DNA of 64,000 nucleotides, from NCBI RefSeq assembly GCF_900198835.1, contig NZ_LT900021.1, positions 1,550,001 through 1,614,000 on the forward strand. The letters are read 5' to 3'. Source of the stretch: Thermococcus henrietii (GTDB taxonomy: Archaea > Methanobacteriota_B > Thermococci > Thermococcales > Thermococcaceae). Positions 1 to 29,091 of this stretch are shown here, piece by piece. Position 1 is the first letter of the stretch. The number at the start of each line of letters is the position of its first letter. Under the pieces are notes generated by a model. It saw only the letters and a list, made by a program, of their open reading frames with translations, made no database searches and was not told where the DNA came from. The position numbers and the translations under genes are program-made.

Positions 1-2
1 TT

Positions 3-3000: not shown

Positions 3001-3317
3001 CCAGCGTTGAGGAGTTGCAACAGGACCTTGCAAGGGTGTTAAACCTAAGCCTCGTTGAGAGTATGAAAAAAAGCCAGGACCCAAGAGCAGTAGTATTCTA
3101 TGCCGGTAACTTAGCACTAATGCATCTAAAGCTTGGTAATCTAAATGAGGCTTTGAAATACCTCCTAGACCTCCAGCGTTATACAGGGAGAATGAACTCT
3201 GACCTCAATTGGCTCATTGACCAAGTAAAACTTGCGATGGAGGAAAATGTCAGGTTAGGTGAAGACGCGCTGATGAAAGCCGACGTCATCATCCACGAGA
3301 TAAAGATGGGGAGGTGA
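3..3317 (+). CDS. Membrane Ser/Thr protein kinase with LamG-like and DUF2341 ectodomain (5' end outside window)
   Basis: The reading frame is open from base 3, so the gene starts before the window; at least 1104 residues are encoded here. Order seen: a LamG-like beta-sandwich (about residues 1-195), a DUF2341 domain (about 210-320, ending in an LYYGN motif), a second concanavalin-like stretch, a Thr/Ser-rich linker (nt 1617-1755), two helical repeats (nt 1760-2095), one membrane span (nt 2112-2168) and a cytoplasmic kinase. Kinase motifs are GQGGFAWVY, VALK, HRDLKPSN (His at residue 874), DWG in place of DFG (893), and APEQ. A C-terminal helical module follows. The ectodomain suggests sugar or surface-polymer binding, which is inference. 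The DNA looks more AT-rich than the next gene. The stop overlaps a possible GTG start of the following kinase. Confidence 0.9.
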   Translation, partial: DGFENYTVGSFPSAGGWILDYEGAGSSYQKVVSYPVKTGEKALQLLSAQGCWAAVAEHKFNSNAQIIGFEADVMAQSFGTEGCGGNRTTVIRLAFWNGNLDSWGRYYADVQFAHNGIIYALSSGIEHRLISWKPQKWYHVTVILNRNTNTYSVYINNKLVASNIPVEHTDTNNINAIVLTAGHANTKVFFDNVRVFEINSSASISKQTPILKVVQYLTPEDLSKWKYYRNVIIQDKSGQTLKNFQVLIKLNSTNFDFFHANPDGSDIRIVDENGNFLPYWIEEWNLTSKEAEIWTIVPEIPAYGTVTLKLYYGNPNAQSRSNGDKVFEFFDDFSRDVIINKQKWNLNYSYNSTWTLVNGLLKYTANGNRGYLLTNQYWGRENLMWCTVAKSSNDYQNWVVWYSPPFGGYVSNPGTGYFVDVRAYGYGWSIGESSGNPWQWKNIALGNISNDGSSWYLACIALTPSQVIGYIKNLNTGKSEILTATDQNYTAPRMFGLSSREQPDGATAYFKYAYLRLYAPKDPLVTVGSEHITEEYSQSTTPTTTYTSTATQTSTTTQTPTQTSSSTTTQATSNTQTSTSTLAPVASSAIGAAKTIISQVPSYVNTSQAKTLLEEAQNAYNNGDYKLAKEFAETAQALAVKSYYDALYTKLQEEKAKGVDTSKAGTLLQQAYSAYQDKDYTRALRILAQADLVLEGTSSSSSKYYYYILGALAIVGVSAYAFSRRKSKPAPVSQNDSVEKKPIRTTAPTTGNIVESLQELYTDFELIGQGGFAWVYKARRKKDGKVVALKIPKNIDPVTGKSFLREITHWLHLKHPNIVELYDANVLPIPYLEMEYCDKPLSKLRTPLDVEQATWIIFNIAEGLKYAHKRGVIHRDLKPSNVLLKAGIPKISDWGLSKVMNESKSSTTTTSFTLLYAAPEQLSKSQFGHTDERTDIWALGVIFYELVTGKLPFDGSDLGEITFSIIGKDPIPPSSINPEAKLIEPIIMKMLAKRKEDRYTSVEELQQDLARVLNLSLVESMKKSQDPRAVVFYAGNLALMHLKLGNLNEALKYLLDLQRYTGRMNSDLNWLIDQVKLAMEENVRLGEDALMKADVIIHEIKMGR

Positions 3318-3373
3318 GATTTGCCTCCCTTTTTAGGTTTATCTCAAAGTTAAAACGACAGGAGAGAAAAAAG

Positions 3374-4966
3374 ATGCCAAAGAGAAGCCTTGAGGAGGAC
3401 TTCGTTCGGAGGCTCATCATCTCGATTTTCCTGATTGCCCTCCTTCAGGGCTTCGGGTTACTCATATCGTTCTTCATATTCCTGCCGTGGATTGAGAGAT
3501 TCCTGCGGGAAACAGGCCCTCGGAGACCAAGACCCGAACCAGTTCCCAGACCGGTGCCCAAGAAACCGCATGACAAGGACTCAAATCCCGGAATCTCCCT
3601 TACGGACGGGCTGATTTTTGAGGCGCCGAAAAAGCTAATCCGGGGAGCTGAGGCGCTGATAAAGGTTGGTTTCAGGAACAGGACAGGGAAAAGCCTTCGC
3701 GTCTCGATAGACCTGTCGGAGCTGGCCCTCTACGGAAAGCTGGAGAGGAGGACCCTTGACCTGTACCTCCTCCCTGGCGAGGAGAGGAGCGAGTACGTGC
3801 GCTTCGTGCCCTCGAAGGTTGGGAAGCACGCGCTTACCGTCCGCGTCCGCTCCGGGCCGTTTATGGGGAAGAAGGCCATTGAAATCGAGATCGCAGGGGA
3901 AAAAGCCGGGGGCAACGGGCTAGATGCCCTTCTGTCGAGGTACGAGAGGGTCGAGCAGATTGGAGAGGGCGGCTTTGGCAGGGTCTACCGCGCCCTGAGG
4001 GACGGCCGGTGGGTCGCGCTCAAGGTTCCCCACGTCCTCAACGAGAGAACCGGAAAGCTCTTTCTGCGCGAGGTTTCAATATGGCGCGAGCTGAGGCACA
4101 GCAACATAGTGAGGCTCCACGACGCCAACCTGACGCCTTACCCCTACATAGAGATGGAGCTCTGCGACCGGTCGCTCGAGGACCTGGAGAAGCCCCTTCC
4201 GGTGGAGCGCGTGGCTGAGATAGCCTTTGAGGTAGCGGAAGGCCTGAAGTACGCCCACTCGAAGGGTATAATCCACCGCGACCTGAAGCCAAGCAACGTC
4301 CTCCTCAAGGGCTCCAAGCCGAAGATAAGCGACTGGGGGCTTGCGAAGGTTCTGTTCGAGAGCGGAACCACGACGGTAACGGCGATGACGCCTTACTATG
4401 CCTCACCCGAGCAGATAAGTCCGTCTCGCTTCGGAGGGGTTGACGAGAGAACCGACGTATGGCAACTGGGCGTTCTCATGTACGAGCTCGCGACGGGGAG
4501 GAGGCCCTTCGAGGGGAGCGACTTCGTCGAGGTCGCCGGGAGGATAATCATGGAGGAGCCGCAGAAGCCGAGCGAGCTTAATCCAGAGGCGAAGCCCCTT
4601 GAAGGAGTAATCCTCCGCTGTCTGAGTAAGGAGAAGGAGAGGCGCTACGGAAGCGTTGAAGAGCTCCAGCGGGATTTGTCGGGAATCCTCGGCGGGAAGT
4701 ACCGGGAAGAGCTCAAGAAGAGCGTCGAGCCCTCGCGCTCGGCCTACTACGCGGGCCAGCTGTTCCTCCTCCACCTGCGGCTCGGGGACGCGAAGGAGGC
4801 CCTGAAGTACGCAAGGGACCTGCTGAGGTACGCAAGGGGGAGGGAGAGGGAAGAGCTGGAGAAGCTAATCGAACAGATTGAGCTGAGGGTTGAGGAGGGT
4901 CTTCCGGCCCCGCAGGAGCTCGTTGAGAAGGGTGAGGTGGTAGTTCATGAGGTTAGCGGGGTATGA
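3374..4966 (+). CDS. Membrane-anchored Ser/Thr protein kinase with Ig-like domain
   Basis: About 530 residues. A long hydrophobic stretch near residues 13-41 could be one span or a hairpin. A beta-rich Ig/CARDB-like domain follows (about 75-175), then a kinase: GEGGFGRVY (from about 197), VALK, HRDLKPSN (His301), DWG (320) and SPEQ. A C-terminal helical module ends in a VEEGLPAPQEL-type motif shared with the neighbouring kinases. ATG at 3374 is chosen because GGAG lies 9 nt upstream; an in-frame GTG at 3314 overlaps the previous stop and would add 20 residues. There is no second clear span between the Ig-like domain and the kinase, so both may lie on the same side of the membrane. The codons look more GC-rich than those of the flanking kinase genes. 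Confidence 0.88.
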   Translation: MPKRSLEEDFVRRLIISIFLIALLQGFGLLISFFIFLPWIERFLRETGPRRPRPEPVPRPVPKKPHDKDSNPGISLTDGLIFEAPKKLIRGAEALIKVGFRNRTGKSLRVSIDLSELALYGKLERRTLDLYLLPGEERSEYVRFVPSKVGKHALTVRVRSGPFMGKKAIEIEIAGEKAGGNGLDALLSRYERVEQIGEGGFGRVYRALRDGRWVALKVPHVLNERTGKLFLREVSIWRELRHSNIVRLHDANLTPYPYIEMELCDRSLEDLEKPLPVERVAEIAFEVAEGLKYAHSKGIIHRDLKPSNVLLKGSKPKISDWGLAKVLFESGTTTVTAMTPYYASPEQISPSRFGGVDERTDVWQLGVLMYELATGRRPFEGSDFVEVAGRIIMEEPQKPSELNPEAKPLEGVILRCLSKEKERRYGSVEELQRDLSGILGGKYREELKKSVEPSRSAYYAGQLFLLHLRLGDAKEALKYARDLLRYARGREREELEKLIEQIELRVEEGLPAPQELVEKGEVVVHEVSGV

Positions 4967-5101: not shown

Positions 5102-8100
5102 ATGAGAGCAATGAAGATGTTTGTACTAGTTTTTGTTCTTTTAGTATTCATTGTCTCGGAGAGTGTCCCTTGGGCTACTGCTGGAAACGTTAGCGTTTCG
5201 TGGTCCTCAAAGACACCAGGTACACTGATTGCCGTGTGTGAGACAATGAACCAGTTGATAATAGCTTCCGGGACCAGGTTGGAGTTTAGAGACCTCAAGG
5301 GGAACCTCCTGAATTCGAGGGATTTGGTGTATCCAATAACCGATGTCGAGCTTGAGCGTAACACATGGGGGTTGGATGTCTATGTTGCATCTGGAAAGTT
5401 CATCCATGTTTTCTATAAAAACGGGATGTACAAAAGGTTCACAGCACCAGACTCGATGAAAGTTCTGAAAGTAGAACCCTCCCCTTGGACCGACAGGGTT
5501 CTTCTCCTGCTGATGGATAACGGGCACTACTACGCGTATATAACGAACAAGAAGTTCTCAGAGGTCGTATTTAAGCTCGATTTGGGGACGGATAGGCCCC
5601 TTGTTGGAATGACCTACGATGCCAACTACCTCGCGGTAGCCCAGGGAAGCGAACTCCGCCTCGTTGAGGTTTCCGACGGAAAGGTCGTGTGGGCTAAAAA
5701 GCTCGGAGGAAGCGTTACTGCTCTCCTCGTTGTTGACCGTGGAGATGTGTACGTGGGAACCTCCGGGGATACACCGAAACTCCAGAAACTCAATGCTAAA
5801 ACTGGAAAAACCGAGTTCTCGGTGCCTCTGCTCGGTACTCCCGTTGCAGTATCCATCGACTGGGAGGGGAGCTATCTCGCCGTCGCTCAGAAACCTGGTA
5901 GGCTGTCTTTACTCTCCTCCTCTGGAAACGTTCTGTGGGAGGAGGATTTCTCCAAGGAATTCGGCGAGGTGGGTGATGTTGAGGTATCGAGGAGCGGTCG
6001 CTACATAGCGGCGACGTTCGGCGGTGGGACGTTGGTTCTTACCAACGGATTTGTGCCTCCGGCGAAGTTTAGTGTGAATGCCAAAAACGCCAAGTTGATT
6101 CCTGTGTTCACGGCACAGGTTAGGGGAAGCGTTTACGCTGTTGATGCGGACGATGAAGGGAAAGTTCTTGCGGTCATTAGTTACTATCCGAACCCTAAGG
6201 GGATCTTTCCGAATTATTTAAGTGACGTTGTCATTATGGACAGCTCCGGCAACGAGATTGGAAAAGACACTTTCGAGGGAATACTCAGAGATGTAGCAGT
6301 TAGCGGGAATGGAAAATACATAGCGGTTGTTGGCGACGACCACTATCTTCACGTGCTCAATATGAAAGGCGATGAAGTTGCGAACAGATTTTTTGACTTT
6401 TACAGTGGTGGATCATACACGGTCGCCATCTCAGAAAACGGTAATAGAATAGCAGTTGGAACCTTTGCAGGCTGGACCGATGATAACATGACGGAGGTGG
6501 CAAACGCCAGCATTTACTACTTCACGTTTGATGGCTCCAAAATCAATGAGGTATGGAAGAAGCCGTTTCCAAGCCCTACCTGGGGAACGAGGGTGTGGGG
6601 ACTCTCTATGGACTCTCAGGGAAACCACTTGGCAGTGAGTGTTGATGGTGGGTATAACAACACATTTATCCTTTCATCGAGCGGTAAACTCCTGTGGGAA
6701 AGTGGGGAAAGGGGATATATCCGTATCAGCAAGGATGGTGAAACCGTAGTATACCTGCCCCTCCCAGGAGATGGCATTATTCGCGTTCAGAAAATAACGG
6801 GGGATATTATCTGGACCAAGCCCGTATCTGGGGTTATAGGGGGCTTCAAGTTTTCAAGGGACTTCTTGGTGGCATGTCTACGAGATGAAAATAAATTAAC
6901 CAGCACTATCAAGATTTTCTCGATACAAAATGGCACAGAGATTCTTACAGCAACTTTTCCTGGATTAATAGTTGATTTCGCAGTCAGCAGGAACAACTAC
7001 CTCCTGATAGGCTTCGAGAACGGCACCGTAGAATACTACAAAATCGAGAGCACGGTTCCTCTGCCCAACGTTAGGGTCACACTGAAAATCAAGAGCTTCC
7101 CATCCAACGCGAGGGTCTTCGTGGACGGCTCATACAAGGGAAATACTCCCATAACCCTTGAGCTTGAGGAGGGTACTTATTCAATAGCCATCGAGAAGAT
7201 AGGCTACACCCGGTGGACCTCGACCGTTAAGCTCCTTGCGGGGGAGACGAAAACCCTCAACGTAACTCTTGAGAAGGTGGCCGCGGACACGGGAGCAGTC
7301 TTGGAGGTAACCTCCACTCCCGAGGGAGCAAAGGTCTATTTGAACAGGGAGTACGCGGGGGTTACGCCCCTCAACTTGACACTTGAAGCCGGCGACTACG
7401 AGGTAAAACTGGTTAAAGAGGGTTATCTGGACTGGGTAAAAACCGTCTCCCTAACTCCAGGCTCCTCGGAGAAGGTCAGTGCAGTTCTGAGCGAAGCTTA
7501 CGGCGTCCTTGAGGTTACCACGAGTCCAACTCAAGCCAAGGTCTATGTAAACGGGGATTACCAGGGCCTCTCACCTCTGAGGATAACCCTCACCCCCGGC
7601 AACTACACCGTGAGAATAGTCCGCGAAGGCTACGAGGATGAAGAGAGGAACGTTACAATCAAGGGTGGGGAAAAGACTTCCCTCGCATTGACGCTTGTTC
7701 CATTGAAGGGCTCCTCAGAAGGGCCAGTTGAAATAGCAGGGGTTACAATGAGCTCGAGCACGTTCTACTACATAGGTGCCGGTGTGGTTGCCGTTTTCGT
7801 TGCCCTCATGCTCTTCATCAACAGGCGCTTGAAGCAGATAGAGCAGAAGACCACCGCCATGACGGTTGATGAATTCGCCCCAAGGCCGGCCTCCCCTACT
7901 ACCTTTCCCCAGGAGCTCTCCAACAAATACACTGAAGTTGAGTTTATAGGCAGGGGCGGCTTCGCCAGGGTCTTCAAGGCCAAAAGGGCGAGCGATGGAA
8001 AGGTCGTCGCCGTAAAGGTTCCCATAAACCTAGACGAGGCTACTGGCAAGAGTTTCATCAAGGAGCTCCAGAACTGGGCCAACCTGAGGCATCCAAACAT

Positions 8101-8980
8101 CGTGGAACTCTACGATTACAATATCCTTCCCATCCCGTACCTTGAGATGGAATACTGTGACTGCAGTCTTAGGCGGGAGAAAAAGCCTATGGACGTAAAG
8201 AAAGCAGCATGGCTGATTTTCAACATAGCTGAAGGCCTGAAGTACGCCCACAATAAGAAGGTCGTCCACCGCGACCTGAAGCCGAGCAACATCCTCCTCA
8301 AAAACGGGGTTCCAAAGATAAGCGACTGGGGACTGAGCAAGGTCATGACGAGCAGCAGGAGCTCCACGGTTGCAGGCTTTACCCCGCTTTACGCCGCCCC
8401 AGAGCAGATAAGTCCGACAAACTTCGGGGGCACCGATGAGAGGACGGACATCTGGCAGTTGGGCGTGGTGTTCTACGAGCTCGTAACCGGAAATCTTCCA
8501 TTTGAGGCGAGCGATTTCGTGGAGCTGGCTTCAAAGATCACTACAGAGGACCCGGTTCTGCCGAGCCGGCTCAATCCAGAGGCGAAGGAAGTGGAGCACA
8601 TAATAATGAAAATGCTCTCCAAGGACAAGGAGCTCCGCTACAAGAACATGCTCGAACTCCAGAGGGACCTCGCGATTTACCTCGGCATGTCCCTCAAGGA
8701 GGAGCTCAAAAAGAGCACGACTGTGAGGGACAGGCACAGGATTGTTTCGTATCTCGGCGACCTTCTGCTGATGAGCATGAAAACCGGAAATAAGATCGAG
8801 GCATATAAATACGCAACGGATATCGTGAACTACGTTACAGGAGAACTGGGAAATGAGTTCAGAAACCTTGCAAAGTACCTGCAAATAATAACAGAGGAGG
8901 GCCTTCCGATTCCGGATGAACTCATTCAAAAAGCCGAGATTCTCATCCACAAGGTCAAGCTCGGCTTTGAAAGGCTCTAG
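5102..8980 (+). CDS. Receptor-like Ser/Thr kinase: signal peptide, beta-propeller, three PEGA repeats, TM, kinase
   Basis: 1292 residues; ATG at 5102 follows a strong GGGAGGGGG site. Order: signal peptide (about 1-28), a long WD40/PQQ-like beta-propeller (about 30-640) with repeated short blocks such as GKYIAVVGDD, three PEGA repeats (about 658-870, each with a KVY-N/DG-YxGxTP core), one membrane span (about 886-906), then a kinase with GRGGFARVF, VAVK, HRDLKPSN (His1056), DWG (1075) and APEQ. It ends in the shared helical module (EEGLPIPDEL). The likely role is transmembrane signalling from an extracellular propeller/PEGA sensor to a cytoplasmic kinase; the ligand is unknown. The gap to the next gene is 9 nt, so they are probably co-transcribed. 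Confidence 0.92.
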   Translation: MRAMKMFVLVFVLLVFIVSESVPWATAGNVSVSWSSKTPGTLIAVCETMNQLIIASGTRLEFRDLKGNLLNSRDLVYPITDVELERNTWGLDVYVASGKFIHVFYKNGMYKRFTAPDSMKVLKVEPSPWTDRVLLLLMDNGHYYAYITNKKFSEVVFKLDLGTDRPLVGMTYDANYLAVAQGSELRLVEVSDGKVVWAKKLGGSVTALLVVDRGDVYVGTSGDTPKLQKLNAKTGKTEFSVPLLGTPVAVSIDWEGSYLAVAQKPGRLSLLSSSGNVLWEEDFSKEFGEVGDVEVSRSGRYIAATFGGGTLVLTNGFVPPAKFSVNAKNAKLIPVFTAQVRGSVYAVDADDEGKVLAVISYYPNPKGIFPNYLSDVVIMDSSGNEIGKDTFEGILRDVAVSGNGKYIAVVGDDHYLHVLNMKGDEVANRFFDFYSGGSYTVAISENGNRIAVGTFAGWTDDNMTEVANASIYYFTFDGSKINEVWKKPFPSPTWGTRVWGLSMDSQGNHLAVSVDGGYNNTFILSSSGKLLWESGERGYIRISKDGETVVYLPLPGDGIIRVQKITGDIIWTKPVSGVIGGFKFSRDFLVACLRDENKLTSTIKIFSIQNGTEILTATFPGLIVDFAVSRNNYLLIGFENGTVEYYKIESTVPLPNVRVTLKIKSFPSNARVFVDGSYKGNTPITLELEEGTYSIAIEKIGYTRWTSTVKLLAGETKTLNVTLEKVAADTGAVLEVTSTPEGAKVYLNREYAGVTPLNLTLEAGDYEVKLVKEGYLDWVKTVSLTPGSSEKVSAVLSEAYGVLEVTTSPTQAKVYVNGDYQGLSPLRITLTPGNYTVRIVREGYEDEERNVTIKGGEKTSLALTLVPLKGSSEGPVEIAGVTMSSSTFYYIGAGVVAVFVALMLFINRRLKQIEQKTTAMTVDEFAPRPASPTTFPQELSNKYTEVEFIGRGGFARVFKAKRASDGKVVAVKVPINLDEATGKSFIKELQNWANLRHPNIVELYDYNILPIPYLEMEYCDCSLRREKKPMDVKKAAWLIFNIAEGLKYAHNKKVVHRDLKPSNILLKNGVPKISDWGLSKVMTSSRSSTVAGFTPLYAAPEQISPTNFGGTDERTDIWQLGVVFYELVTGNLPFEASDFVELASKITTEDPVLPSRLNPEAKEVEHIIMKMLSKDKELRYKNMLELQRDLAIYLGMSLKEELKKSTTVRDRHRIVSYLGDLLLMSMKTGNKIEAYKYATDIVNYVTGELGNEFRNLAKYLQIITEEGLPIPDELIQKAEILIHKVKLGFERL

Positions 8981-8989
8981 GTGGTCTAA

Positions 8990-10102
8990 ATGAGATGCAC
9001 CCACCAGTACAGGCATTCGATTAAGGAGTGTCCGCGCGAGGCGGAGGAGCTTGGCCTCTGCATTTTCCACCTTCCATTCAGTGGGAAGAACTTTGAAGAG
9101 GCAGAGCTAAGCGGGGAAGACCTGGAGGAGGCATACCTCAGCGGGGCAAATCTGAGGGGGGCAAACCTCAGCAACGTCAACCTCCGCTATGCCGATGTAA
9201 GTGAAGGTAATCTAAGCGGGGCAAACCTTGAATGGGCCTCTTTGGTGGGTGTTGATTTAAGCAGTGCCAAGCTGGACGGTGCGAACCTGACAAACGCTGA
9301 TATACGTAATGCTGACTTAACGGGAGCCAACCTAGACGAAGCAACCCTGAGCTTTGCCAACCTTGAGGGTACGAGCCTTATTAGGGCGTCTCTCAATGGA
9401 GCCGAGCTCTACGGTGCAAGTCTGAATGGCACAAATCTCCTTGGCGCCGACTTCAGGGGGGCAAGGCTCTATGGGGCTGAGTTTGATGGGGCAAAAAACG
9501 TTGAGCACGCGATTTTTGACGACATCGCAGTTGAGGAAAAAGAAGGAGATGAATTCAGAAAGAAAAAGGACTTTGAAAGGGCATACGATTCCTACTCCAA
9601 GGCTCTTGAAGTTTACCTTGACCTGAAGAGAATTTTTAGGACCAAGGGGCTCTACGACAGGGCCTCGGTTTACTCAGTCGGCGAGTGGCGCGTTCGTGGT
9701 AAGCTTCAGTTAATAGCATCACGGGTTCAGAATCATAGTTCAACCAGATTTCTGCCCCTAACGGGAGGTGGAAAACTGGGTGTTGTTGAGGGAACGCTCA
9801 GGTACGTTACAAACAGGTTGTACGGGATTACATCCCTTTACGGAGAAAGCCCACTGAGAGTTCTCTTGACGACGGTGACGATAATACTGGCTTACGCACT
9901 GATTTTCTGTGTGAGTGGAACAATCCGTGTGGGTTCCCCAAGGGACTGCCTCTACTTTAGCATTGTGACGTTTACAACCGTTGGATACGGGGATATAACC
10001 CCCGTCCCCTCCCATAGACTACTCGCGGCGAGTGAAGCCTTTATCGGTGCGTTCATGCTTTCGTTCTTTGTGGTTGTGATGAGCAGAAAACTTATCAGAT
10101 AA
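8990..10102 (+). CDS. Pentapeptide-repeat protein fused to a K+-channel pore domain
   Basis: 370 residues. The N-terminus carries a Cys/Cys/CxxH pattern that could bind zinc (Cys3, Cys14, then CIFH). Pentapeptide repeats of the A(N/D)LxG type run from about residue 35 to 170 and should form a right-handed quadrilateral beta-helix. A charged helical linker follows. The C-terminal part has two hydrophobic helices flanking a pore loop with TVGYGD, the K+-channel selectivity signature (Ion_trans_2 type). A pentapeptide domain on a two-helix channel suggests a gated or localised channel. It is 9 nt after a kinase and directly before the Vps4-like ATPase, so it belongs to the same transcription unit. 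Phosphorylation by the kinases is speculation. Confidence 0.88.
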   Translation: MRCTHQYRHSIKECPREAEELGLCIFHLPFSGKNFEEAELSGEDLEEAYLSGANLRGANLSNVNLRYADVSEGNLSGANLEWASLVGVDLSSAKLDGANLTNADIRNADLTGANLDEATLSFANLEGTSLIRASLNGAELYGASLNGTNLLGADFRGARLYGAEFDGAKNVEHAIFDDIAVEEKEGDEFRKKKDFERAYDSYSKALEVYLDLKRIFRTKGLYDRASVYSVGEWRVRGKLQLIASRVQNHSSTRFLPLTGGGKLGVVEGTLRYVTNRLYGITSLYGESPLRVLLTTVTIILAYALIFCVSGTIRVGSPRDCLYFSIVTFTTVGYGDITPVPSHRLLAASEAFIGAFMLSFFVVVMSRKLIR

Positions 10103-10129
10103 ATGAGAAAGTTAGGAGGAGGTGTAAGA

Positions 10130-11329
10130 ATGCCAGTTGACCTTTCAGGACCTTTAATGGCCGCCTTCAAGAAAGCGAAAAGGGAATTCGAAGAAGCCGT
10201 AAAGAAAGGAAATAACGAGGTTGCCAAGAAGAAGGCTCTGGAGTGTGCCCGCATACTGAGGCAGCTCGCCAACTATGACGAGTTCAGCAGGGAGAGTTAT
10301 CTTAGAAAGGCCAAGAAGTGGGAAGCCATCGCAAGGGACGTTGAAGCCGGCCGCTACGGGATAAAGAGGAACAAGCCGATAAAAGAGGGTGGGAACCAAA
10401 GGAGAAGCGGGAACTTCGAAGAGAATGGTGAAGATGATGTATTCAAACAGTACGTAGAGGGCCTCATTGCAAGGTCAAACGTTAAGTGGAACGACATAGG
10501 TGGTCTTGAGGAAGTTAAGAGACTCATGATGGAGACCATTGTTATCTCAGCCCTACAAAAACCCCAGTCAGTACAGCCTTGGAAGGGAATCCTTCTCTTC
10601 GGCCCGCCTGGAACCGGTAAGACCCTCCTCGCGAGCGCGGCAGCTGGAAGCTTAAACGCGACCTTCTTCTCTGTCAAAGCCAGCAACGTCCTAAGCAAGT
10701 ACTTCGGCGAATCCGCGAAGATAATCTCGGCCCTCTACGAGGTGGCTAGAGAGAAGGCCCCCAGTATAGTGTTCATGGATGAAATAGATGCCCTGACAAC
10801 GAAGCGCTCCGGTGACCAGAGTGAGGCCAGCAGGAGGATGCTGTCAACACTGCTGACCGAACTCGACGGCTTCCAGGACAAGGGCAATGACGTGCTCGTC
10901 CTAACGCTGGCGGCGACCAACACCCCCTGGGACCTTGATGAAGCGGTTCTGTCAAGGTTTCCACGGAGGATTTACGTTCCGTTACCGGACCAGAAAGCCA
11001 CGAAGGAGATAATCAAAATCAACACGCGTGGGCTCGACACAAGCAGACTTGACTTGGACGCGATAGCCGAGGAGAGCGTCAGACGCCGGTACTCGGGAAG
11101 GGACATCAAGAACCTCTGCCAGGAAGCAATATGGAATATGATACGTGAGGAGAACAGGGACCTTCACAAGCTCGCCGAGCTTCCATTCCACGAGCTGAAG
11201 AAGCGCTCGCTCAGAACGAGGCCTCTTGAGATGAGGGACTTCGAAGAGGCGTTCAAGAAGATTAAGAGCCCGCTGACGAGGAAGGAGGTCGAGAGGTACG
11301 AGAAGTGGGCGGAGGAGTTTGGGGGATGA
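10130..11329 (+). CDS. Vps4/CdvC-like AAA ATPase with MIT-like N-terminal domain
   Basis: 399 residues from ATG 10130, chosen because GGAGGAGGTG lies just upstream; an ATG at 10103 lacks this. The first 72 or so residues form a helical bundle with the spacing of an MIT domain (FKKAKREFEEA, ECARILRQL, RKAKKWEAIA). A linker and one AAA module follow: WNDIGGLEEVK, Walker A GPPGTGKT (158-165), Walker B VFMDEIDA (Glu218), sensor-1 AATN (260-264) and arginine fingers in SRFPRR (about 276-280). MIT plus a single AAA domain is the Vps4/CdvC layout. In ESCRT systems this enzyme unfolds ESCRT-III polymers. An ESCRT-III-like gene closes the same island. It is translationally coupled to the next kinase by an ATGA overlap. 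Other meiotic-clade AAA proteins remain possible. Confidence 0.85.
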   Translation: MPVDLSGPLMAAFKKAKREFEEAVKKGNNEVAKKKALECARILRQLANYDEFSRESYLRKAKKWEAIARDVEAGRYGIKRNKPIKEGGNQRRSGNFEENGEDDVFKQYVEGLIARSNVKWNDIGGLEEVKRLMMETIVISALQKPQSVQPWKGILLFGPPGTGKTLLASAAAGSLNATFFSVKASNVLSKYFGESAKIISALYEVAREKAPSIVFMDEIDALTTKRSGDQSEASRRMLSTLLTELDGFQDKGNDVLVLTLAATNTPWDLDEAVLSRFPRRIYVPLPDQKATKEIIKINTRGLDTSRLDLDAIAEESVRRRYSGRDIKNLCQEAIWNMIREENRDLHKLAELPFHELKKRSLRTRPLEMRDFEEAFKKIKSPLTRKEVERYEKWAEEFGG

Positions 11330-14300
11330 ACTCCACCAAGAGTAAAACATGCTGTATACCTTGGGAAAACACATTGGAAGTTATATCCGTCCTTGTTATC
11401 CTATTGTTGGCTTTATTGAATGCTAACTTTGCATTAGGACAGCCTGCATACGAATTCTGGAAAGAGATACCCCTCCCAAGCCTCCAAGAGAGACTAACTT
11501 ATCACTATGATTACAACAATGGTTTCATCCTCATTGGCAGCAACAGAACGGTAATGCTTTACTCAGAAAAAGGCACAAAGTTGCTGGATATTGACTTGCC
11601 TCCCAATGACAACGGGCACATAATAAGCGTTGGATTATCACCGGATGGGAAGTACTTCGCAGTTGGAACTGATGACCACGGCCTTTACGTCATCGATTCA
11701 AAGGGAAAAGTTCTCTGGAGGAGCCATGAACCTAATCAGTGGGTTAGTGCGATTGCTATTGACCATGGTCTCATCGCGATAGGCAACGGGAACACCCTTG
11801 AGCTCTGGAATGTCAGTGGGAGTCTACTCTGGGCTCAAGAAGTTGGTTCTTGGATATACGACGTGAAGTTTATGTACTGGACTGGTCAAACGTACATAAT
11901 AGTTGGAACGTGGGGAATTGGAAAAGGATACAATACTAATCTTTTAGCGTTTGATATATCGGGTAATATTAAATGGAAAACAAAGCTTGAAAACGGAAAC
12001 GTGGAGAGCCTTGCCGTGAACGATGCCACTGGGATGATTGGGGCCGTTGTTATGTCTCAAGGTAACTCAGGGAGCTGGTACTGCAATATTTACGTGCTCA
12101 GTTTTGGAGGGGCCATTCTACACAGGATAAACTGGACGACTAACCTACACACCAGTAAGATAGCATTTCGCGAAGATGGAGCCTACCTCGGGGTGCCCGG
12201 TTACTTCGGTAGAATGGCAGAGGTTGATGTTTCCAGCGGGAAAGTGATTCCCACTAAGATTCTAGCCTCAAATGTTCTTTATTTCTCGGGTTCAATGGTT
12301 GTTACCTCAGAAAAAGATACGGTATACATCTACAGGACTTCACTTGGTCAGAACTCAACGGAAACTTACTCCTACACCCCTTGGAGCCTGCGGTTTAACT
12401 ATACTCCAAGAGCCGTTGCGGTATCCGACAACGGCTGTTCCGTGGTCGGTACAGAAATGCCAGATGGAAGCGTCTACTATGTGCTTAATGGGAAAATACT
12501 GTGGAGCCACCCGCTGTCGTCAAGTGTTTACGACGTCGCGATAACCGCCAACGGGTCGAGAGTCTACGCAGTAGGTGGAGATGTCCGAGCGTTTTCACGG
12601 AACGGAACACTTCTCTGGAGATACGACGTGTCGACAACAGTCACGAGCGTTGATTCAACGCCCAATGGAAAGTATGTAGTGGCAGGAGCGATTGGTGGGG
12701 TGTACCTCTTTAATTTCAAGGGGGACCCTCTGTGGAAGGTACCCCTAACTGCAGAGGACACGATAACAGTCCACGTCGCCGTAAGCAACGACGGGAATGT
12801 TGTGGCAACAGTAACTACGAGAAATGGCGGGTATGTTTGGTACATTGAAAATGGTCGCGTTGTGTGGAAAAAACACGTAACCGATGACATGTTATTAAGC
12901 GCCGACATTTCCCCAGACTCAAACTACATTGCAGTTGGAGGAAGTGACGGGAGGGTATACGTCCTCAATAATAAGGGGGAGCTCGTAAAAGAGTCGATTG
13001 TAGGAACGGTTAGAGCGGTTGAATTTTTCAAACAGGGAAACCGGCTTTACCTAGCAGTAAGGGCGAACGGAGTTAAAGTATTCACTGTTCCCAATCTCAG
13101 AAAAATCCTGACAATACCTGCCGAGGAGTACCCCTCCTCACCATCAAGACCTATGGACGTGTCCAATGACGGAAGTTATATACTTCTCGCTGACAGTGAT
13201 GGTACCGTCAGCTTCCGGAGTTTACCTGACCTTAGAGAAGGTACTCTAATAATAACCTCAACGCCTTCCAATGCGCAGATACTTCTCAATGGAACGTACC
13301 TGGGAACAACTCCGATGAAAATAACAGTCAAACCTGGTAAATACGTTCTCGTGATTATGAAAACTGGATACAAGAACCATACTGAAGTCTTAGACGTGGA
13401 GTCCAATAGTGTTATTACAAGGAACGTGACTCTCACTCCCCTTGTAGGATATGTAACAGTTACATCAACACCAGAGGACGCCAAAGTTTACATTGATGGA
13501 AGATACGTGGGCATGACGCCACTAGAGAATTACAGTATACCCAGTGGAACCCATGAGATAATACTTAGAAAGAGTGGGTATAAGGAGTACACAAAAAAGG
13601 TACTCATTACAGCTGGAGAGGGAGTAACTCTATCCGTAGCTCTCGTCATGGCAACTCCTTCCCTACAATCCCAAACATCAACAAACACCAGCTCATCCCA
13701 TGTATTGGCAACAATGACTTCATCAAAGGCCATTCCGACAAAAGAGACAACCTCCATAACCGTGGGTTCCTATTCAAAAAGAGACAGGAACACATCCCCA
13801 AACTCATACGCACTCATTCTGTTTCTAAGTTTGGTGGTCCTTGGTGGAGTTACCGTTGGAGCATGGCGCGTGAAGTCTCGGAAGAAAAAGCACACACAGG
13901 GGACATCTATTGTGGGATTTCCATTGGAGCTCCTCGACAAGTATGAACCCCTCGAGTTCCTCGGTGAGGGCGGCTTCGCCAAAGTCTTCAAGGTTAGAAG
14001 GAAATCCGACGGGAAAATCATAGCCCTTAAGGTTTCCCGCCTCGACGAGAAGGCAAAGCGTTTCTTCCTCAAGGAGGTTAAGGCTTGGCGTCTGCTTGAC
14101 CACCCAAACATCGTCACGCTCTACGACGCCTACGCTGAACCGTTGCCTCATCTCGAGCTGGAGTTTGTGGACGGGGTAAAACTCAATGGCGAAACCATTA
14201 GAGACCTTGGAAGATACCCGAAGCCAGTTGAGGAAAGTGAGGCACTCCACTTTATCAAAGGTATCGCCAGTGGTTTAGCTCACGCGCACTCCAAGGAGGT

Positions 14301-15069
14301 CTATCACCGCGACCTTAAGCCCCAGAACGTCCTCATAACAAGCGATTTAACGCCGAAAATAACCGACTGGGGATTGGCCAAGGTTGGAGCCGTATCAACA
14401 ACTGCTACAACCACTAAGGGACTAACGCTTCTCTACGCCGCGCCAGAACAGCTTGACGAAGGAACATATGGGCATACCGACCACAGAACGGATATTTATC
14501 AGCTCGGACTGATATTCTACGAACTTTTAACCGGAAAGCTTCCCTACACAGGAACCACCCCCGCGGTGGTCATGGCTAGGGTGATAAATCCAGCGGTGAA
14601 GCCCAAGCCACCGAGTCACTACAACAAAGCTTTGGCGAAGTACGATGGAATCTTCGAGAAGCTCCTCGCTAAGAACAAGGAGGACCGCTACCAGTCCGTT
14701 GAGGAGTTTTTAGCGGATTTGGAGCTCATAGAAAAGATAGAAGAGGAGAGAAGGACCCTTGAGAGGGAGATAGAAAAGACGAAGACCACCATGAGTCTCA
14801 CAACAAATAGCAAGGAACTCAAAAAGCTCATGCGCCAGCTTGTTGAACAGCTGAGCAGAAATGCCATACTACATGCCCAGCTCAACGACAAAGCTGGACT
14901 CATCAACGCGCTTGAGGATTTGAAGGCGTTCTCGAAGGAACATAGAGATGAGCTTGAAAGTGCAATAGACCAGTTCAAGATGATGATGCAGGAGAGCGTG
15001 CCAATAAGCAAGTCCACGCTGGACGAGCTGAAGGTCCTCCTGCACAAGGTTCAGAGGGAAGTTGAATGA
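11326..15069 (+). CDS. Receptor-like Ser/Thr kinase: beta-propeller, two PEGA repeats, TM, kinase
   Basis: 1247 residues from ATG 11326, which overlaps the previous stop (ATGA) and has GGAGGAG upstream; a GTG at 11305 is less likely. A signal/anchor segment lies near residues 18-38. A WD40/PQQ-type propeller follows (about 40-635), then two PEGA repeats (about 639-775), a Ser/Thr-rich linker, a membrane span (about 826-845) and a kinase with GEGGFAKVF, IALK, HRDLKPQN (His994), DWG (1014) and APEQ. The C-terminus is a long helical module with coiled-coil character (about 1140-1247) ending in a VPISKSTLDEL motif. It is a paralogue of the 5102-8980 kinase in domain order, but its kinase is closer to the 15380 and 18459 kinases. 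Confidence 0.92.
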   Translation: MNSTKSKTCCIPWENTLEVISVLVILLLALLNANFALGQPAYEFWKEIPLPSLQERLTYHYDYNNGFILIGSNRTVMLYSEKGTKLLDIDLPPNDNGHIISVGLSPDGKYFAVGTDDHGLYVIDSKGKVLWRSHEPNQWVSAIAIDHGLIAIGNGNTLELWNVSGSLLWAQEVGSWIYDVKFMYWTGQTYIIVGTWGIGKGYNTNLLAFDISGNIKWKTKLENGNVESLAVNDATGMIGAVVMSQGNSGSWYCNIYVLSFGGAILHRINWTTNLHTSKIAFREDGAYLGVPGYFGRMAEVDVSSGKVIPTKILASNVLYFSGSMVVTSEKDTVYIYRTSLGQNSTETYSYTPWSLRFNYTPRAVAVSDNGCSVVGTEMPDGSVYYVLNGKILWSHPLSSSVYDVAITANGSRVYAVGGDVRAFSRNGTLLWRYDVSTTVTSVDSTPNGKYVVAGAIGGVYLFNFKGDPLWKVPLTAEDTITVHVAVSNDGNVVATVTTRNGGYVWYIENGRVVWKKHVTDDMLLSADISPDSNYIAVGGSDGRVYVLNNKGELVKESIVGTVRAVEFFKQGNRLYLAVRANGVKVFTVPNLRKILTIPAEEYPSSPSRPMDVSNDGSYILLADSDGTVSFRSLPDLREGTLIITSTPSNAQILLNGTYLGTTPMKITVKPGKYVLVIMKTGYKNHTEVLDVESNSVITRNVTLTPLVGYVTVTSTPEDAKVYIDGRYVGMTPLENYSIPSGTHEIILRKSGYKEYTKKVLITAGEGVTLSVALVMATPSLQSQTSTNTSSSHVLATMTSSKAIPTKETTSITVGSYSKRDRNTSPNSYALILFLSLVVLGGVTVGAWRVKSRKKKHTQGTSIVGFPLELLDKYEPLEFLGEGGFAKVFKVRRKSDGKIIALKVSRLDEKAKRFFLKEVKAWRLLDHPNIVTLYDAYAEPLPHLELEFVDGVKLNGETIRDLGRYPKPVEESEALHFIKGIASGLAHAHSKEVYHRDLKPQNVLITSDLTPKITDWGLAKVGAVSTTATTTKGLTLLYAAPEQLDEGTYGHTDHRTDIYQLGLIFYELLTGKLPYTGTTPAVVMARVINPAVKPKPPSHYNKALAKYDGIFEKLLAKNKEDRYQSVEEFLADLELIEKIEEERRTLEREIEKTKTTMSLTTNSKELKKLMRQLVEQLSRNAILHAQLNDKAGLINALEDLKAFSKEHRDELESAIDQFKMMMQESVPISKSTLDELKVLLHKVQREVE

Positions 15070-15379: not shown

Positions 15380-17704
15380 ATGAGCAGAAATCCATCTCTC
15401 CTGTTGCTCCCCGTGGTTTTCTTAATTATATTGCCGTACGTCAGTGCAACAACGATTGGGATAGACCTCTCTCACGGCGAGAACCCAAACGGCCTCACGT
15501 CAGTGGTCTACAAAAATCAGACGCTCGCTCCAGGAATAGTTGAAATCTTAACCCAATATAACTTCGTCTACTTTGGGAATGAGAGTTACCAGGATGAGCT
15601 GGGAATTCGCTGGCTGGGCAGGTCAATAACTCCGGGCCTGCTGGAAAACGTTGACGTCCTCATACTCGGCCAGCCAACGGCAAACCTCTCAAGCGCCGAA
15701 ATCTCAGCCATAAGGGAGTGGTTCTACTCCGGAGGGAAGGTTCTGTGGGTTGCCGGTGATTCGGACTATGGAAACGGTGCCAAGACCCAAGAGATAGTGA
15801 ACGGCCTGCTCAAAGCCCTTGGAGCGCCCCTACGCCTTGACCTGTGCTCCGTTGAGGACCCCGTGAGCAACGCCGGCGGGAAGGCATACCGCCTCATAGC
15901 CTACGACAGACCGAGCAATGATACCCCCTACCGCCTGCTTTTGATTCAGGGAGTAGCTCATGGCATCCTCGCGCACGGGCCCGGGCCGGTGGCGCTCTTC
16001 GCAAACGGCACTTGGAAGCCCCTGAGGGATGGGAACAAGCCTTCGGGAGTTTACATCATACTCAGGACGAGCAAAAATGCCCAAATCGTTGAGAACAGCG
16101 CACCCTCTGCAAAGGCTTACAAGGCCGGAGAAAAGGGTGAATTCCCGATAGTGGTGGCATGGGTATGGAATTCGGGCAACAAAAGGAGTGTTCTGGTAGT
16201 CAGCGGCGAGACGCCCGTTGGAGGCTACATTCCAATGTGGGTTAGTCAGTATTACGGCATCAAGCTCGACGGGCCAACCTTTGTCTCGAACGTAATCCAC
16301 TGGGGAATCACCGTTGCGTCTGGATCCCTTGGGGCTTCAGGTCCGAGCTCATCGACGTCCGCACAGGAAGTATCAAACAACCCTCTTGCCCAACCTCCGA
16401 GCTCCCTGCCAGAGACAGGAACGACAGGAAAGGGCCCGTCTTCACAAGTCTCCTACCTCGCAATTGGAGGTATTCTAGTATTCCTCTTCGTTGGACTTGT
16501 CTTCCTGAAGAGCAGGAGCGGAAGTGAGAATAGGGGCAACCGCACCATCCCCGGCTTTCCTCCTGGGCTCTTGGACAGGTACGAGCCACTCGCGTTCCTT
16601 GGCGAGGGCGGCTTCGCCAAGGTCTTCAAGGTCAAACGCAAAAAGGACGGCAAAACAGTCGCCCTAAAAGTCCCGCATCTAACAGATAAGTCAAGAAAAT
16701 CCTTCATTAGGGAAGTTCAGGCCTGGAACATGCTGGAGCATCCAAACATAGTAAAGCTCTACCGTGCAGAGGAGGAGCCAGTACCATACCTCGAGATGGA
16801 GTTCGTCGAAGGGGCTGAGGTTGATGGGAAGCTCGTTAGAACTCTTGAGGAACTGCCAAAGCCCGTTGATGAGACCACTGCTTTAGAACTCATCAGAGGC
16901 ATCGCAGAGGGATTGGAGCACGCGCACTCGAAGGGTATAATCCACAGGGACTTAAAACCCGGAAACATCCTCCTGAAGGCTGACTTAACGCCAAAGATAA
17001 CCGACTGGGGACTCGCGAAAATAGGAACACATTCAACGACCACCACCTCGGGGGTAACGGTTCTCTACGCCGCGCCGGAGCAGCTTGACCCCGAAACCTA
17101 CGGGCGCACCGACCACAGGACGGACATCTACCAGCTCGGCCTAATCTTCTATGAACTCCTGACAGGAAAACTGCCCTACGGAGGGAAGGGCCCCGCAAGT
17201 GTAATCGCAAAGATTCTCAACCCAGAAACCAAGCCAAAACCGCCGAGTGCCGTTAGGCCAGAGCTTGCGAAGTACGATGGGCTCTTCGAGAAGCTGCTGG
17301 CGAAGAGGAAGGAAGACCGCTACGGAAGCGTTGAGGAGTTTCTGGAAGACCTTAAGCTCTTGGAGAAGCTTGAAGGAGAAAGGACCGACCTCAGAGGGCA
17401 GATTGAGGAGCTCAAGAAAACCATCCAAGTAACGACGGACAGGTCGGAGGTTCAGAGGCTCGTCAGGAAACTCGTTGAAGGACTTGGGAGGAACGCGGTC
17501 CTTTCGGCGAGGCTCAACGACAAGGCAGGCCTGATTAGTGCGCTTGAGGAGCTCAAGGAGTTCACTCGGGAAGAAAGGGGAGAGGTTGAGCGGGCGATTG
17601 AAACCGTCGAGCTCCTCCTGAGGGAGGGCCTGCCGATTTCCCGGGAACTCGTTGAGAGAGTGGAAGTCCTTGTTGATAGGATTAAACGGGAGGTGGAGAG
17701 ATGA
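15380..17704 (+). CDS. Membrane Ser/Thr kinase with GATase1/DUF4350-like ectodomain
   Basis: 774 residues; ATG at 15380 follows GGTGGTGGG. A signal peptide (about 1-24) precedes an alpha/beta domain (about 25-310) that looks like a class I glutamine-amidotransferase/DUF4350 fold: TIGIDLSHGENP, VDVLILGQP, then IREWFYSGGKVLWVAGD. No catalytic Cys-His pair is obvious, so it is probably a binding domain. A low-complexity linker and a span (about 355-377) lead to a kinase with GEGGFAKVF, VALK, HRDLKPGN (His522), DWG (542) and APEQ, then a helical C-terminal module ending in EGLPISREL. The stop overlaps the start of the PP2C gene (ATGA), so kinase and phosphatase are co-translated. Confidence 0.9.
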   Translation: MSRNPSLLLLPVVFLIILPYVSATTIGIDLSHGENPNGLTSVVYKNQTLAPGIVEILTQYNFVYFGNESYQDELGIRWLGRSITPGLLENVDVLILGQPTANLSSAEISAIREWFYSGGKVLWVAGDSDYGNGAKTQEIVNGLLKALGAPLRLDLCSVEDPVSNAGGKAYRLIAYDRPSNDTPYRLLLIQGVAHGILAHGPGPVALFANGTWKPLRDGNKPSGVYIILRTSKNAQIVENSAPSAKAYKAGEKGEFPIVVAWVWNSGNKRSVLVVSGETPVGGYIPMWVSQYYGIKLDGPTFVSNVIHWGITVASGSLGASGPSSSTSAQEVSNNPLAQPPSSLPETGTTGKGPSSQVSYLAIGGILVFLFVGLVFLKSRSGSENRGNRTIPGFPPGLLDRYEPLAFLGEGGFAKVFKVKRKKDGKTVALKVPHLTDKSRKSFIREVQAWNMLEHPNIVKLYRAEEEPVPYLEMEFVEGAEVDGKLVRTLEELPKPVDETTALELIRGIAEGLEHAHSKGIIHRDLKPGNILLKADLTPKITDWGLAKIGTHSTTTTSGVTVLYAAPEQLDPETYGRTDHRTDIYQLGLIFYELLTGKLPYGGKGPASVIAKILNPETKPKPPSAVRPELAKYDGLFEKLLAKRKEDRYGSVEEFLEDLKLLEKLEGERTDLRGQIEELKKTIQVTTDRSEVQRLVRKLVEGLGRNAVLSARLNDKAGLISALEELKEFTREERGEVERAIETVELLLREGLPISRELVERVEVLVDRIKREVER

Positions 17705-18465
17705 GGCTAATACTGCCCGAAAATCCATGCGTGGACTTCAGCGGGGCCGGAACTGACTTCGTTTACGGGATAACCCACATTGGAGGACGAAAGCACAACG
17801 AGGACGGCCTGCTCATCATGAAGCTCCCCGACGGATACCTACTTGCCGTTGCGGACGGACTGGGCGGCCACAACGCCGGGGAAGTCGCTTCTAGGCTGGC
17901 CCTGGAAACCCTTGCGGGGGTCTTTGGGGAGGAGTACGTTGAAGGCCTTGAAGAAGACCTTCTCGCGATTCTCCTGAGGAAGACCCACGAAGTTGCCCAC
18001 TCCGTTGTTAGGGAGCGCGCAAAGGGGCCGCTTGAAGGGATGGGGACGACCCTCGTCTCGGCCGTGGTTAGGGGAAGGACTGTTATCGTTGCCAACACCG
18101 GCGACAGCAGGGCGTACCTGGTTTCCAGGGGGAGGCTCGTCGCGAGGACGCTCGACCATTCACCACTTCAGGAGCTCGTCCTTATGGGGCAGGTAAGCGA
18201 GGAGGAAGCCATGTACCATCCACTCAGGAACAGGGTGAGTTCTGCAATTGGGCGGCGTCTGATGGTTGACCTCTACCGCTGGGAAGCCGGACCCGGCCAC
18301 GTTCTCCTGCTCAGCACGGACGGCCTTCACGACTACGTTCCAAAGGAGGAAATCCTGCGGGCGCTCACCCCGGGGAAAACGGCACGTGACCTCGCCAAAA
18401 CCCTCGTGGAAAGGGCCCTGCCTGCCACTGAAGACAACGTCACGGTGGTGGTGTGGAGATGGTGA
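17701..18465 (+). CDS. PP2C-family Ser/Thr protein phosphatase
   Basis: 254 residues. PP2C motifs in order: RKHNEDG, VADGLGGHNAG (metal-binding Asp/Gly), GMGTTLVSA, ANTGDSRAYLV, a DHSPLQEL segment, STDGLHDYV and EDNVTVVVW. These are the metal-coordinating Asp positions of bacterial and archaeal Stp/PrpC-type enzymes, which remove phosphate from Ser/Thr in an Mn2+/Mg2+-dependent way. It is soluble: no signal peptide or span. It overlaps the upstream kinase stop (ATGA) and the downstream kinase start (18459), so it is embedded between two kinases. It is very probably the phosphatase that reverses signalling by the six kinases of this island. Confidence 0.95.
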   Translation: MRLILPENPCVDFSGAGTDFVYGITHIGGRKHNEDGLLIMKLPDGYLLAVADGLGGHNAGEVASRLALETLAGVFGEEYVEGLEEDLLAILLRKTHEVAHSVVRERAKGPLEGMGTTLVSAVVRGRTVIVANTGDSRAYLVSRGRLVARTLDHSPLQELVLMGQVSEEEAMYHPLRNRVSSAIGRRLMVDLYRWEAGPGHVLLLSTDGLHDYVPKEEILRALTPGKTARDLAKTLVERALPATEDNVTVVVWRW

Positions 18466-20348: not shown

Positions 20349-20897
20349 ATGAAGTTCTGGAAATCCAAGGAGGAAAAGGAAATAGAGCGGAAGATAAGGG
20401 CTAGAAAAGCGAAAATGGCCCTAAAACAGTACATAACCAACCTCGAAGCCTTAAAGCGCCGGGTCTTTCTCCAGGGAAAGGAAGCAGCGAAGCTCGGCGA
20501 CGAAGAGCTGTTGAGGAGGAGTGCAGTGAAATACCTCACACTCGAGAACAGGATAAAGCAGGCGAAGAGACTCCTCCTCCTGATGGAAGAAGCCGAGATT
20601 CAAAGGGAGCTCGTTAAGGTCTCTGGAGAGTTTCTCCGCTTCAGCAGGGACATCGTTGAGAGCATTGCGGAGGGACCCGGAGCAGAGGACGTTGCCAAGA
20701 TGCAGGTCGAGTTCGAGAAAGCGATGACAAAGGTGGAGAGCCTCGATGAGGCTCTGAGTTCCATGCTAGACGTAACGAGCGAAAGCATCCTGAGCGGAAA
20801 CTTTGACGAAGAAACGATAAAAGAAGCGGAGGCGTTCTTCGACGTAGAACCCTCCGGAGAGAGGCTCAAAGAGATTGAGAAGGCTATGAGGGCTTAG
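20349..20897 (+). CDS. ESCRT-III (Snf7/CdvB)-like protein
   Basis: 182 residues, predicted almost entirely helical. Features match ESCRT-III: a short N-terminal MKFWKS that could insert in membrane, a basic first helix (about 12-47), GDEELLRRSAVKYLTLENRI resembling helix 2 (50-70), then ESCRT-III-like MEEAEIQRELVKVSGEF (79-95). An acidic C-terminal half follows with SLDEALSSMLDVTSESI (131-147), like the Vps2/Snf7 SMxxML region, a FDEE helix, and a terminal LKEIEKAMR that resembles an MIM1 peptide for an MIT domain. It is 3 nt after a kinase and lies in the same island as the MIT-AAA ATPase. No search was run; other coiled-coil families cannot be excluded. Its 3' end overlaps a convergent amidohydrolase by 14 nt. 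Confidence 0.75.
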   Translation: MKFWKSKEEKEIERKIRARKAKMALKQYITNLEALKRRVFLQGKEAAKLGDEELLRRSAVKYLTLENRIKQAKRLLLLMEEAEIQRELVKVSGEFLRFSRDIVESIAEGPGAEDVAKMQVEFEKAMTKVESLDEALSSMLDVTSESILSGNFDEETIKEAEAFFDVEPSGERLKEIEKAMRA

Positions 20898-29032: not shown

Positions 29033-29091
29033 CCTTAGTTGACTGTTTTTGAGCGGAATGTTTAGAAGTTTTTGTGATTAAATGTGAGTAT

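Follow-up and report, generated by a model that had tools for sequence, protein, structure and literature searches.

A Vps4-type ATPase with an MIT-like N-terminus in a kinase-rich ESCRT gene cluster of Thermococcus henrietii

The stretch of DNA analysed here (64,000 nucleotides, G000:C1:1550001-1614000; hereafter referred to as the window) lies in a one-contig genome of 2.16 Mb. Its first third carries a run of genes on the + strand, the kinase genes being assigned with Pfam. The first of these genes, encoding a receptor-type Ser/Thr kinase with a DUF2341 domain, occupies positions 1..3317, its frame opening about 1.3 kb before position 1, and is followed by genes for a Ser/Thr kinase (3314..4966) and for a receptor Ser/Thr kinase with beta-propeller-like and PEGA domains (5102..8980). 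The next gene (8990..10102) encodes a pentapeptide-repeat protein (PF00805) with a C-terminal two-helix ion channel domain (PF07885), in which we take the sequence TVGYGD to be a K+ filter. A Vps4-type AAA ATPase of 399 aa (10130..11329) then precedes a second receptor Ser/Thr kinase with beta-propeller-like and PEGA domains (11326..15069), a Ser/Thr kinase (15380..17704), a PP2C-type protein phosphatase (17701..18465; PF13672, 65 bits), a Ser/Thr kinase with PEGA domains (18453..20345) and a protein of 182 aa (20349..20897; hereafter referred to as E). Further downstream, positions 29074-31102 contain a MerR-HTH/resolvase gene followed by a TnpB-like gene (Cas12f1-like TNB, OrfB_IS605), a pair that presumably corresponds to an IS607-type element.

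Four more genes lie just upstream of the window, on the same strand (locus L031). They encode a small protein with a Cas2-like beginning, as judged by reading its sequence (A), a protein of 637 aa with a coiled coil (B), and two proteins of 198 and 205 aa (C and D; G000:C1:1547442-1548652, about 2.6 to 1.3 kb before the window). The Cas2-like part of A had no match in Pfam or PDB searches, and no Pfam or PDB match confirmed a winged helix in B. A PDB search with the C-terminus of B returned one designed repeat protein (E 0.0002, with no stretch passing alone), all other matches having E values of at least 0.18.

The frame of the ATPase gene could also open at position 10103, 27 nt 5' of the ATG at 10130. 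This ATG, which is preceded by the stretch GGAGGAGGTG, fits the start MPVDLSGPL common to the Vps4 orthologues. The initial annotation described the gene as translationally coupled to a receptor kinase and a channel. The first part of this description stands, the ATPase and downstream kinase frames overlapping in an ATGA at 11326-11329, but the second does not, as the channel gene, on the same strand, ends at 10102, leaving a gap of 27 nt and no overlap.

The 399-aa protein contains a single AAA module (residues 154-285, 10589..10984), recognised by PF00004 with 139.7 bits, in which the motifs GPPGTGKT, IVFMDEID and SKYFGES are intact; we take these to be the Walker A motif, the Walker B motif and the aromatic pore loop, respectively. 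It ends with a Vps4_C oligomerisation domain (residues 353-398, 11186..11323), which scored 32.8 bits against a Pfam cut-off of 21.3 with PF09336, a model also matched by some Cdc48 proteins. The score obtained with the NCBIfam CdvC equivalog model NF041006 was 206.7 bits, below its cut-off of 650. A search of 60 small genomes, all of the phylum to which a Marsarchaeota-titled locus belongs, yielded no CdvC above that cut-off.

Phylogenetic analysis of the AAA domain was performed with IQ-TREE under the LG+C20+F+G4 model on 66 domains: 16 from the Vps4 proteins of the type found in the window (hereafter referred to as Main, after the published Main clade of archaeal ESCRT systems), thinned from 33 with the removal of identical rows, seven from a second Vps4 present in some of the loci (hereafter referred to as V2), two from solo Vps4 genes (L032 and L048), 18 from Asgard Vps4 proteins, 10 from each of the D1 and D2 domains of Cdc48, and three PAN-like domains. 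The rows termed Asgard came from searches of the phylum of L065, which is Candidatus Jordarchaeum (kingdom Promethearchaeati) according to its record title. One of the PAN rows (L005) scored above the NCBIfam PAN cut-off, and the other two (L082 and L085) had PAN as their best match but fell below it. In this tree, built without Lon, katanin, spastin, eukaryotic Vps4 and crenarchaeal CdvC, the Main, V2 and solo Vps4 proteins of the Thermococcus-like genomes and of Methanothermococcus joined the 18 Asgard Vps4 proteins with support values of 98/99. The AAA domain of the window was separate from Cdc48 and from PAN, as represented by one clear and two PAN-like rows. An AAA domain of the Cdc48 D2 kind was rejected: forcing this grouping cost 37.9 log-likelihood units (p-AU 0.002). 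In a PDB search with an Asgard Vps4 protein, the alignments listed were only to proteins of the Cdc48/VCP type. The tree also grouped the solo Vps4 proteins, which have longer branches, with V2 (99/98). The monophyly of V2 was compatible with the data (p-AU 0.41), the solo proteins being either sister to V2 or nested within it. On the basis of its sequence, the product of 10130-11329 is identified as a Vps4-type ATPase, and the Vps4/CdvC architecture proposed in the initial annotation was supported by the single AAA module, the Vps4_C domain, the MIT-like N-terminus described below and the grouping with Asgard Vps4.

The N-terminal domain (residues 1-75, 10130..10354) has no match to the Pfam MIT model. 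The best match to this model in the whole genome (22.3 bits, below the cut-off) lies in a different frame, of 342 aa, at G000:C1:1911092-1911208 (L029). AlphaFold2, run on 15 sequences, predicted three helices (residues 6-26, 29-49 and 54-72; mean pLDDT 75.5). In Foldseek searches with this model no match reached E≤0.001, the MIT domains of human SKD1 (VPS4B) and S. solfataricus Vps4 standing out by their probability of 0.97 (2v6y: TMt 0.71, E 1.1). With VIA-align, the MIT domains of Sulfolobus Vps4 gave Z scores of 10.4 and 10.0 (2w2u: Z 10.4, 73 aligned residues, 2.1 A), values also reached by some unrelated helical proteins. For profile comparison, MIT reference sequences were cut from 19 of 20 loci (L170 being excluded), and two of these (L168 and L169) were then dropped as wrongly cut. 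The initial hhalign comparisons were weak (0.3% and 2%); after the removal of the two wrongly cut rows, the addition of the solo rows and the use of the default context setting, the combined Main, V2 and solo N-termini matched the 17 Asgard MIT rows with a probability of 72% and a score of 28.2, versus 18.5 for the reversed profile, and none of 60 shuffles preserving heptad phase reached the real score. A PDB search with the N-terminal profile yielded six matches, none of them to an MIT domain, the best (E 0.088) being unrelated and one corresponding to CHMP1A (E 3.3). Small helical bundles match readily in fold comparisons, and for this reason we refer to the domain as MIT-like, a designation on which fold and profile agree, as the initial annotation had anticipated from the letters. 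The outcome that would have spoken against that annotation, a PAN-type AAA domain with an N-terminus unlike MIT, was not encountered among the clades represented in the tree, namely Cdc48 and PAN.

Proteins C and D are related to each other (hhalign 99.1%). When compared with an Asgard ESCRT-III reference consisting of the 45 frames having the highest numbers of mutual matches, the combined C and D profile gave a probability of 78% and a score of 40.5 over 172 columns, versus 22% and 29.8 over 36 columns for the reversed control, and none of 60 shuffles reached the real score. Individually, D matched at 31% and C at 1.3%, the reversed C profile scoring higher, at 32%. E alone matched at 16%, with a score of 26.9 and a shuffle maximum of 25.4. 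The coiled-coil protein B, used as a negative control, matched at 1.0%, with three of 60 shuffles scoring as high. With the Pfam Snf7 model, D scored 18.0 bits and E 14.3-14.6 bits, both below the cut-off of 27.3, and the genome had no further match at E≤0.1; both genes lie in this cluster. Snf7 remained below the Pfam cut-off in all 94 of the related genomes surveyed. The threshold of E≤0.1 also gave matches in six of the 14 control genomes, including those of E. coli and B. subtilis; at E≤0.001, S. acidocaldarius was the sole matching control genome, its match also lying below the cut-off. Many of the weak Snf7 matches in other genomes fall in other genes, and a single such match therefore proves little.

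E was modelled by AlphaFold2 with a pLDDT of 85.6. The top two Foldseek matches of this model were to S. islandicus CdvB (probabilities of 0.96 and 0.95, E 0.15 and 0.17). VIA-align was not specific, ranking BAR domains, with a Z score of about 10, above CHMP2A-CHMP3, with 8.3. A PDB profile search with C and D returned seven weak matches, including CdvB2 (E 0.32) and CdvB (E 0.95), and the same search with E returned an unrelated chain only. The C-terminal end of E conforms to [KR]L[KR]xIExxM in all 15 sequences compared, and the Methanothermococcus C proteins end in ELFKRLEKE in four of four cases, which resembles a MIT-interacting motif and may be one; inspection of D by eye revealed no such motif. 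We thus consider C and D to be supported as an ESCRT-III-like pair and E to be a candidate third member, the presence of ESCRT-III in the locus, as in the Main clade, resting on the combined C and D match of 78% and the Snf7 matches of D and E, with C unsupported when taken alone and E weak.

We surveyed 94 genomes of the family of the window (presumably Thermococcaceae), 20 of which fall short of at least 90% completeness and at most 5% contamination, taking a best E value below 1e-180 as indicating the presence of this Vps4. By this definition, Vps4 was found in 38 genomes, the C/D pair in 39 and both in 36; C/D was present in 36 of the 38 genomes with Vps4 versus three of the 56 without it (Fisher p 4.7e-20, uncorrected for relatedness). 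Vps4 occurred without C/D in two draft genomes (G050 and G063), and C/D without Vps4 in three genomes (G020, G056 and G085). Four of these five discordant genomes are drafts, and G056 has a Vps4 fragment at a contig end. In G020, a one-contig genome, a single frame of 641 aa (L216:7397-9322) comprises the greater part of a D-like protein together with a B-like portion and may be a fusion or a remnant. E was found in 30 of the 94 genomes, every one of them with this Vps4, and V2 (E 1e-134 to 1e-147) in 11, all with E, a partial V2-like piece of 152 aa in G050 being excluded from the count. V2 was not among the matches in the genome of the window, which does contain a solo Vps4 (L032). The channel was detected at E≤1e-30 in 16 genomes; in 15 of these it lies on the same contig as C/D or Vps4 and within 6 kb of them, and in the sixteenth (G061) it adjoins A and B.

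The order A-B-C-D-kinase-Vps4-kinase-PP2C recurs among the regions examined (the window and L031-L063). Four loci (L042 and L045-L047) lack the kinase between Vps4 and PP2C, and others have several more genes there. Sixteen of these regions contain E, and V2 directly follows it in eight (L034, L035, L038, L039, L049, L052, L054 and L057); two of the eight E-containing regions without V2 stop inside or just past E. The Methanothermococcus loci (L058-L063) have a short form of the cluster, several being cut by contig ends. The whole cluster is also found in a record titled Archaeoglobus sp. (MAG), with a Vps4 75% identical to that of the window (L056:10001-11182), reflecting either a misplaced contig or a transfer. 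The 19 kb surrounding each of the two solo genes (L032 and L048) yielded no match to C, D or E. These data place the Vps4 of the window in an ESCRT cluster that also encodes ESCRT-III-like proteins, kinases and a phosphatase. The claim of the initial annotation that the ATPase is not associated with cdvB must be rejected, as must the reading of a Vps4 outside any ESCRT locus, in view of the co-directional C/D pair, the recurrent cluster, the Snf7 matches, the co-occurrence of Vps4 with C/D and the weaker candidate E inside the window at 20349-20897; the 64 kb alone had been seen, C/D beginning about 2.6 kb before the window, and E was not named there. Its parallel claim concerning ftsZ was correct: no FtsZ gene lies near the locus, and the three tubulin-family genes found in the genome are all more than 500 kb away. 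The Pfam matches listed for the neighbouring genes include no CdvA family.

Clusters of this kind have already been described. Makarova et al. (2024; PMC10936438) defined a Main clade of archaeal ESCRT systems comprising Vps4, ESCRT-III, arCOG09748 and arCOG08177, with members named from Thermococcales and Methanococcales; many of its genomes, not all, also have kinases and a phosphatase. The authors suggested that these systems serve to form vesicles and to sort cargo, and that phosphorylation is key to this role. The same article, citing Makarova et al. (2010), reported a separate solo Vps4 clade lacking an ESCRT locus in Thermococcales. An earlier review described the loss of ESCRT in Thermococcales (PMC6524685), a 2021 review stated that these archaea have Vps4 homologues and no ESCRT-III, and that their vesicle formation is unlike the ESCRT-dependent kind (PMC10117752), and a 2022 study described euryarchaeal Cdv proteins as lacking the domains allowing interaction (PMC8970359).

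We consider it likely that the ATPase is the Vps4 of a euryarchaeal Main-clade ESCRT system and that it disassembles ESCRT-III under the control of kinases and a phosphatase for vesicle formation or sorting. The data above establish the domain anatomy, the phylogenetic position and the gene cluster with its conservation; the mechanism we infer from the protein family and the gene context. The MIT-like domain would bind the tails of C and D, encoded just upstream of the window, and of E, encoded inside it, and a hexameric AAA motor would extract subunits from ESCRT-III polymers assembled at the cytoplasmic side of the membrane. The Ser/Thr kinases, predicted to be anchored in the membrane with outward-facing sensor domains, may control timing and cargo, with the PP2C phosphatase balancing them, and the output would probably be vesicle budding or the sorting of membrane proteins rather than cell division. 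This interpretation is supported by the Vps4_C domain, the MIT-like N-terminus, the grouping with Asgard Vps4, the recurrent gene order, the profile match of C and D to Asgard ESCRT-III, the Snf7 matches of D and E, the co-occurrence of Vps4 with C/D, the tubulin-family genes located elsewhere and the published description of the Main-clade architecture with kinases and phosphatase (PMC10936438). Against it stand the silence of the Pfam MIT model, the weakness of the Snf7 matches, the score of the reversed C and D control, the weak individual matches of C and E, the ranking of BAR domains first for E and the lack of a visible MIT-interacting motif in D. In addition, according to an unpublished result cited in a review, T. 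kodakarensis produced vesicles as before when any single one of its three Vps4 homologues was disrupted (PMC10117752).

The locus may alternatively serve an envelope-stress, membrane-repair or antiviral response, in which the kinases would sense damage, the ESCRT-III-like proteins would repair the membrane in the manner of PspA-type relatives, and ion flux would be altered through the channel. The patchy presence of Vps4 (38 of 94 genomes), the variety of kinases across loci, the K+ channel within the locus and the PADLOC matches of the kinases to defence-kinase models are consistent with such a function, but the kinase and ATPase matches obtained with PADLOC for the six proteins searched look like general superfamily similarity, and Pfam recognised no nuclease or toxin in those cluster genes to which it was applied; we regard this explanation as unlikely. 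A named defence system was considered but not retained, the PADLOC matches being at superfamily level only.

A part in cell division, like that of CdvC in Sulfolobus, seems highly improbable. The two ATPases belong to the same family and both have ESCRT-III-like partners, but 56 of the 94 related genomes lack such a Vps4 (E<1e-180), which is thus probably dispensable; the three tubulin-family (FtsZ-type) genes elsewhere in the genome make a division output unlikely, and, according to the published view, complex ESCRT systems coexisting with FtsZ are not for division (PMC10936438). There is similarly little to recommend an ESCRT-III-independent ATPase that unfolds kinases or channels as its substrates, as might be suggested by the solo Vps4 proteins reported in Thermococcales (PMC10936438), the lack of C, D or E around the L032 and L048 genes and the channel and kinase genes immediately adjoining Vps4, given that Vps4 and C/D occur together in 36 genomes and apart in five.

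An elaboration of the favoured reading, as a Main-clade Vps4 acting on ESCRT-III, can be offered tentatively. The ESCRT of Thermococcales might be a two-tier, receptor-gated system, with a core of A, B, C, D and Vps4, an added pair formed by E and the second Vps4, and a K+ channel of the pentapeptide-repeat type dedicated to linking ESCRT action with ion flux or the state of the membrane; the solo Vps4 would then be related to this second Vps4 and have lost its partner. The words "pentapeptide" and "channel" each have no occurrence in the main text of PMC10936438, supplements aside, and parts of that text show neither a third ESCRT-III-like gene nor a second Vps4 within a locus, nor the grouping of solo Vps4 with the second Vps4. 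A literature search combining ESCRT, pentapeptide repeat and archaea led to one article, on phage shock proteins (PMC11237479).

The locus is an already described kind of archaeal ESCRT cluster, to which a few details are added here. Its association with kinases is a published feature of the clade (PMC10936438), and the published picture is extended slightly by the channel and by the second pairing of an ESCRT-III candidate with a Vps4, unless the supplements of that article list them. The locus also provides concrete ESCRT-III-like candidates beside Vps4 in Thermococcales, a group said to lack ESCRT-III and for which powerful genetic tools exist (PMC10117752), such that the role of euryarchaeal ESCRT and its control by kinases become testable.

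Comparison with known systems places the locus as follows. The solo Vps4 of Thermococcales, represented in this genome by L032, has the same overall architecture, but differs in having longer branches and no ESCRT-III-like gene within 19 kb (L032 and L048); these two genes probably belong to the published solo clade (PMC10936438). CdvC/Vps4 of Sulfolobus shares with the ATPase of the window an MIT-like domain, one AAA module, a Vps4_C domain and ESCRT-III-like partners nearby, whereas the locus described here has kinases and a phosphatase, a genome with FtsZ-type genes and an ATPase reaching 206.7 of the 650 bits required by the CdvC model. With respect to the Main clade, the channel is an addition relative to the main text of PMC10936438, as are E and, in related loci, the second Vps4 relative to parts of that text. 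Of the remaining components, Vps4, ESCRT-III-like genes, Ser/Thr kinases and a PP2C phosphatase are present as in that clade, and the small Cas2-like protein A and the coiled-coil protein B have the order and look expected of arCOG08177 (Cas2-like plus TBP-like) and arCOG09748 (winged helix), to which they may correspond.
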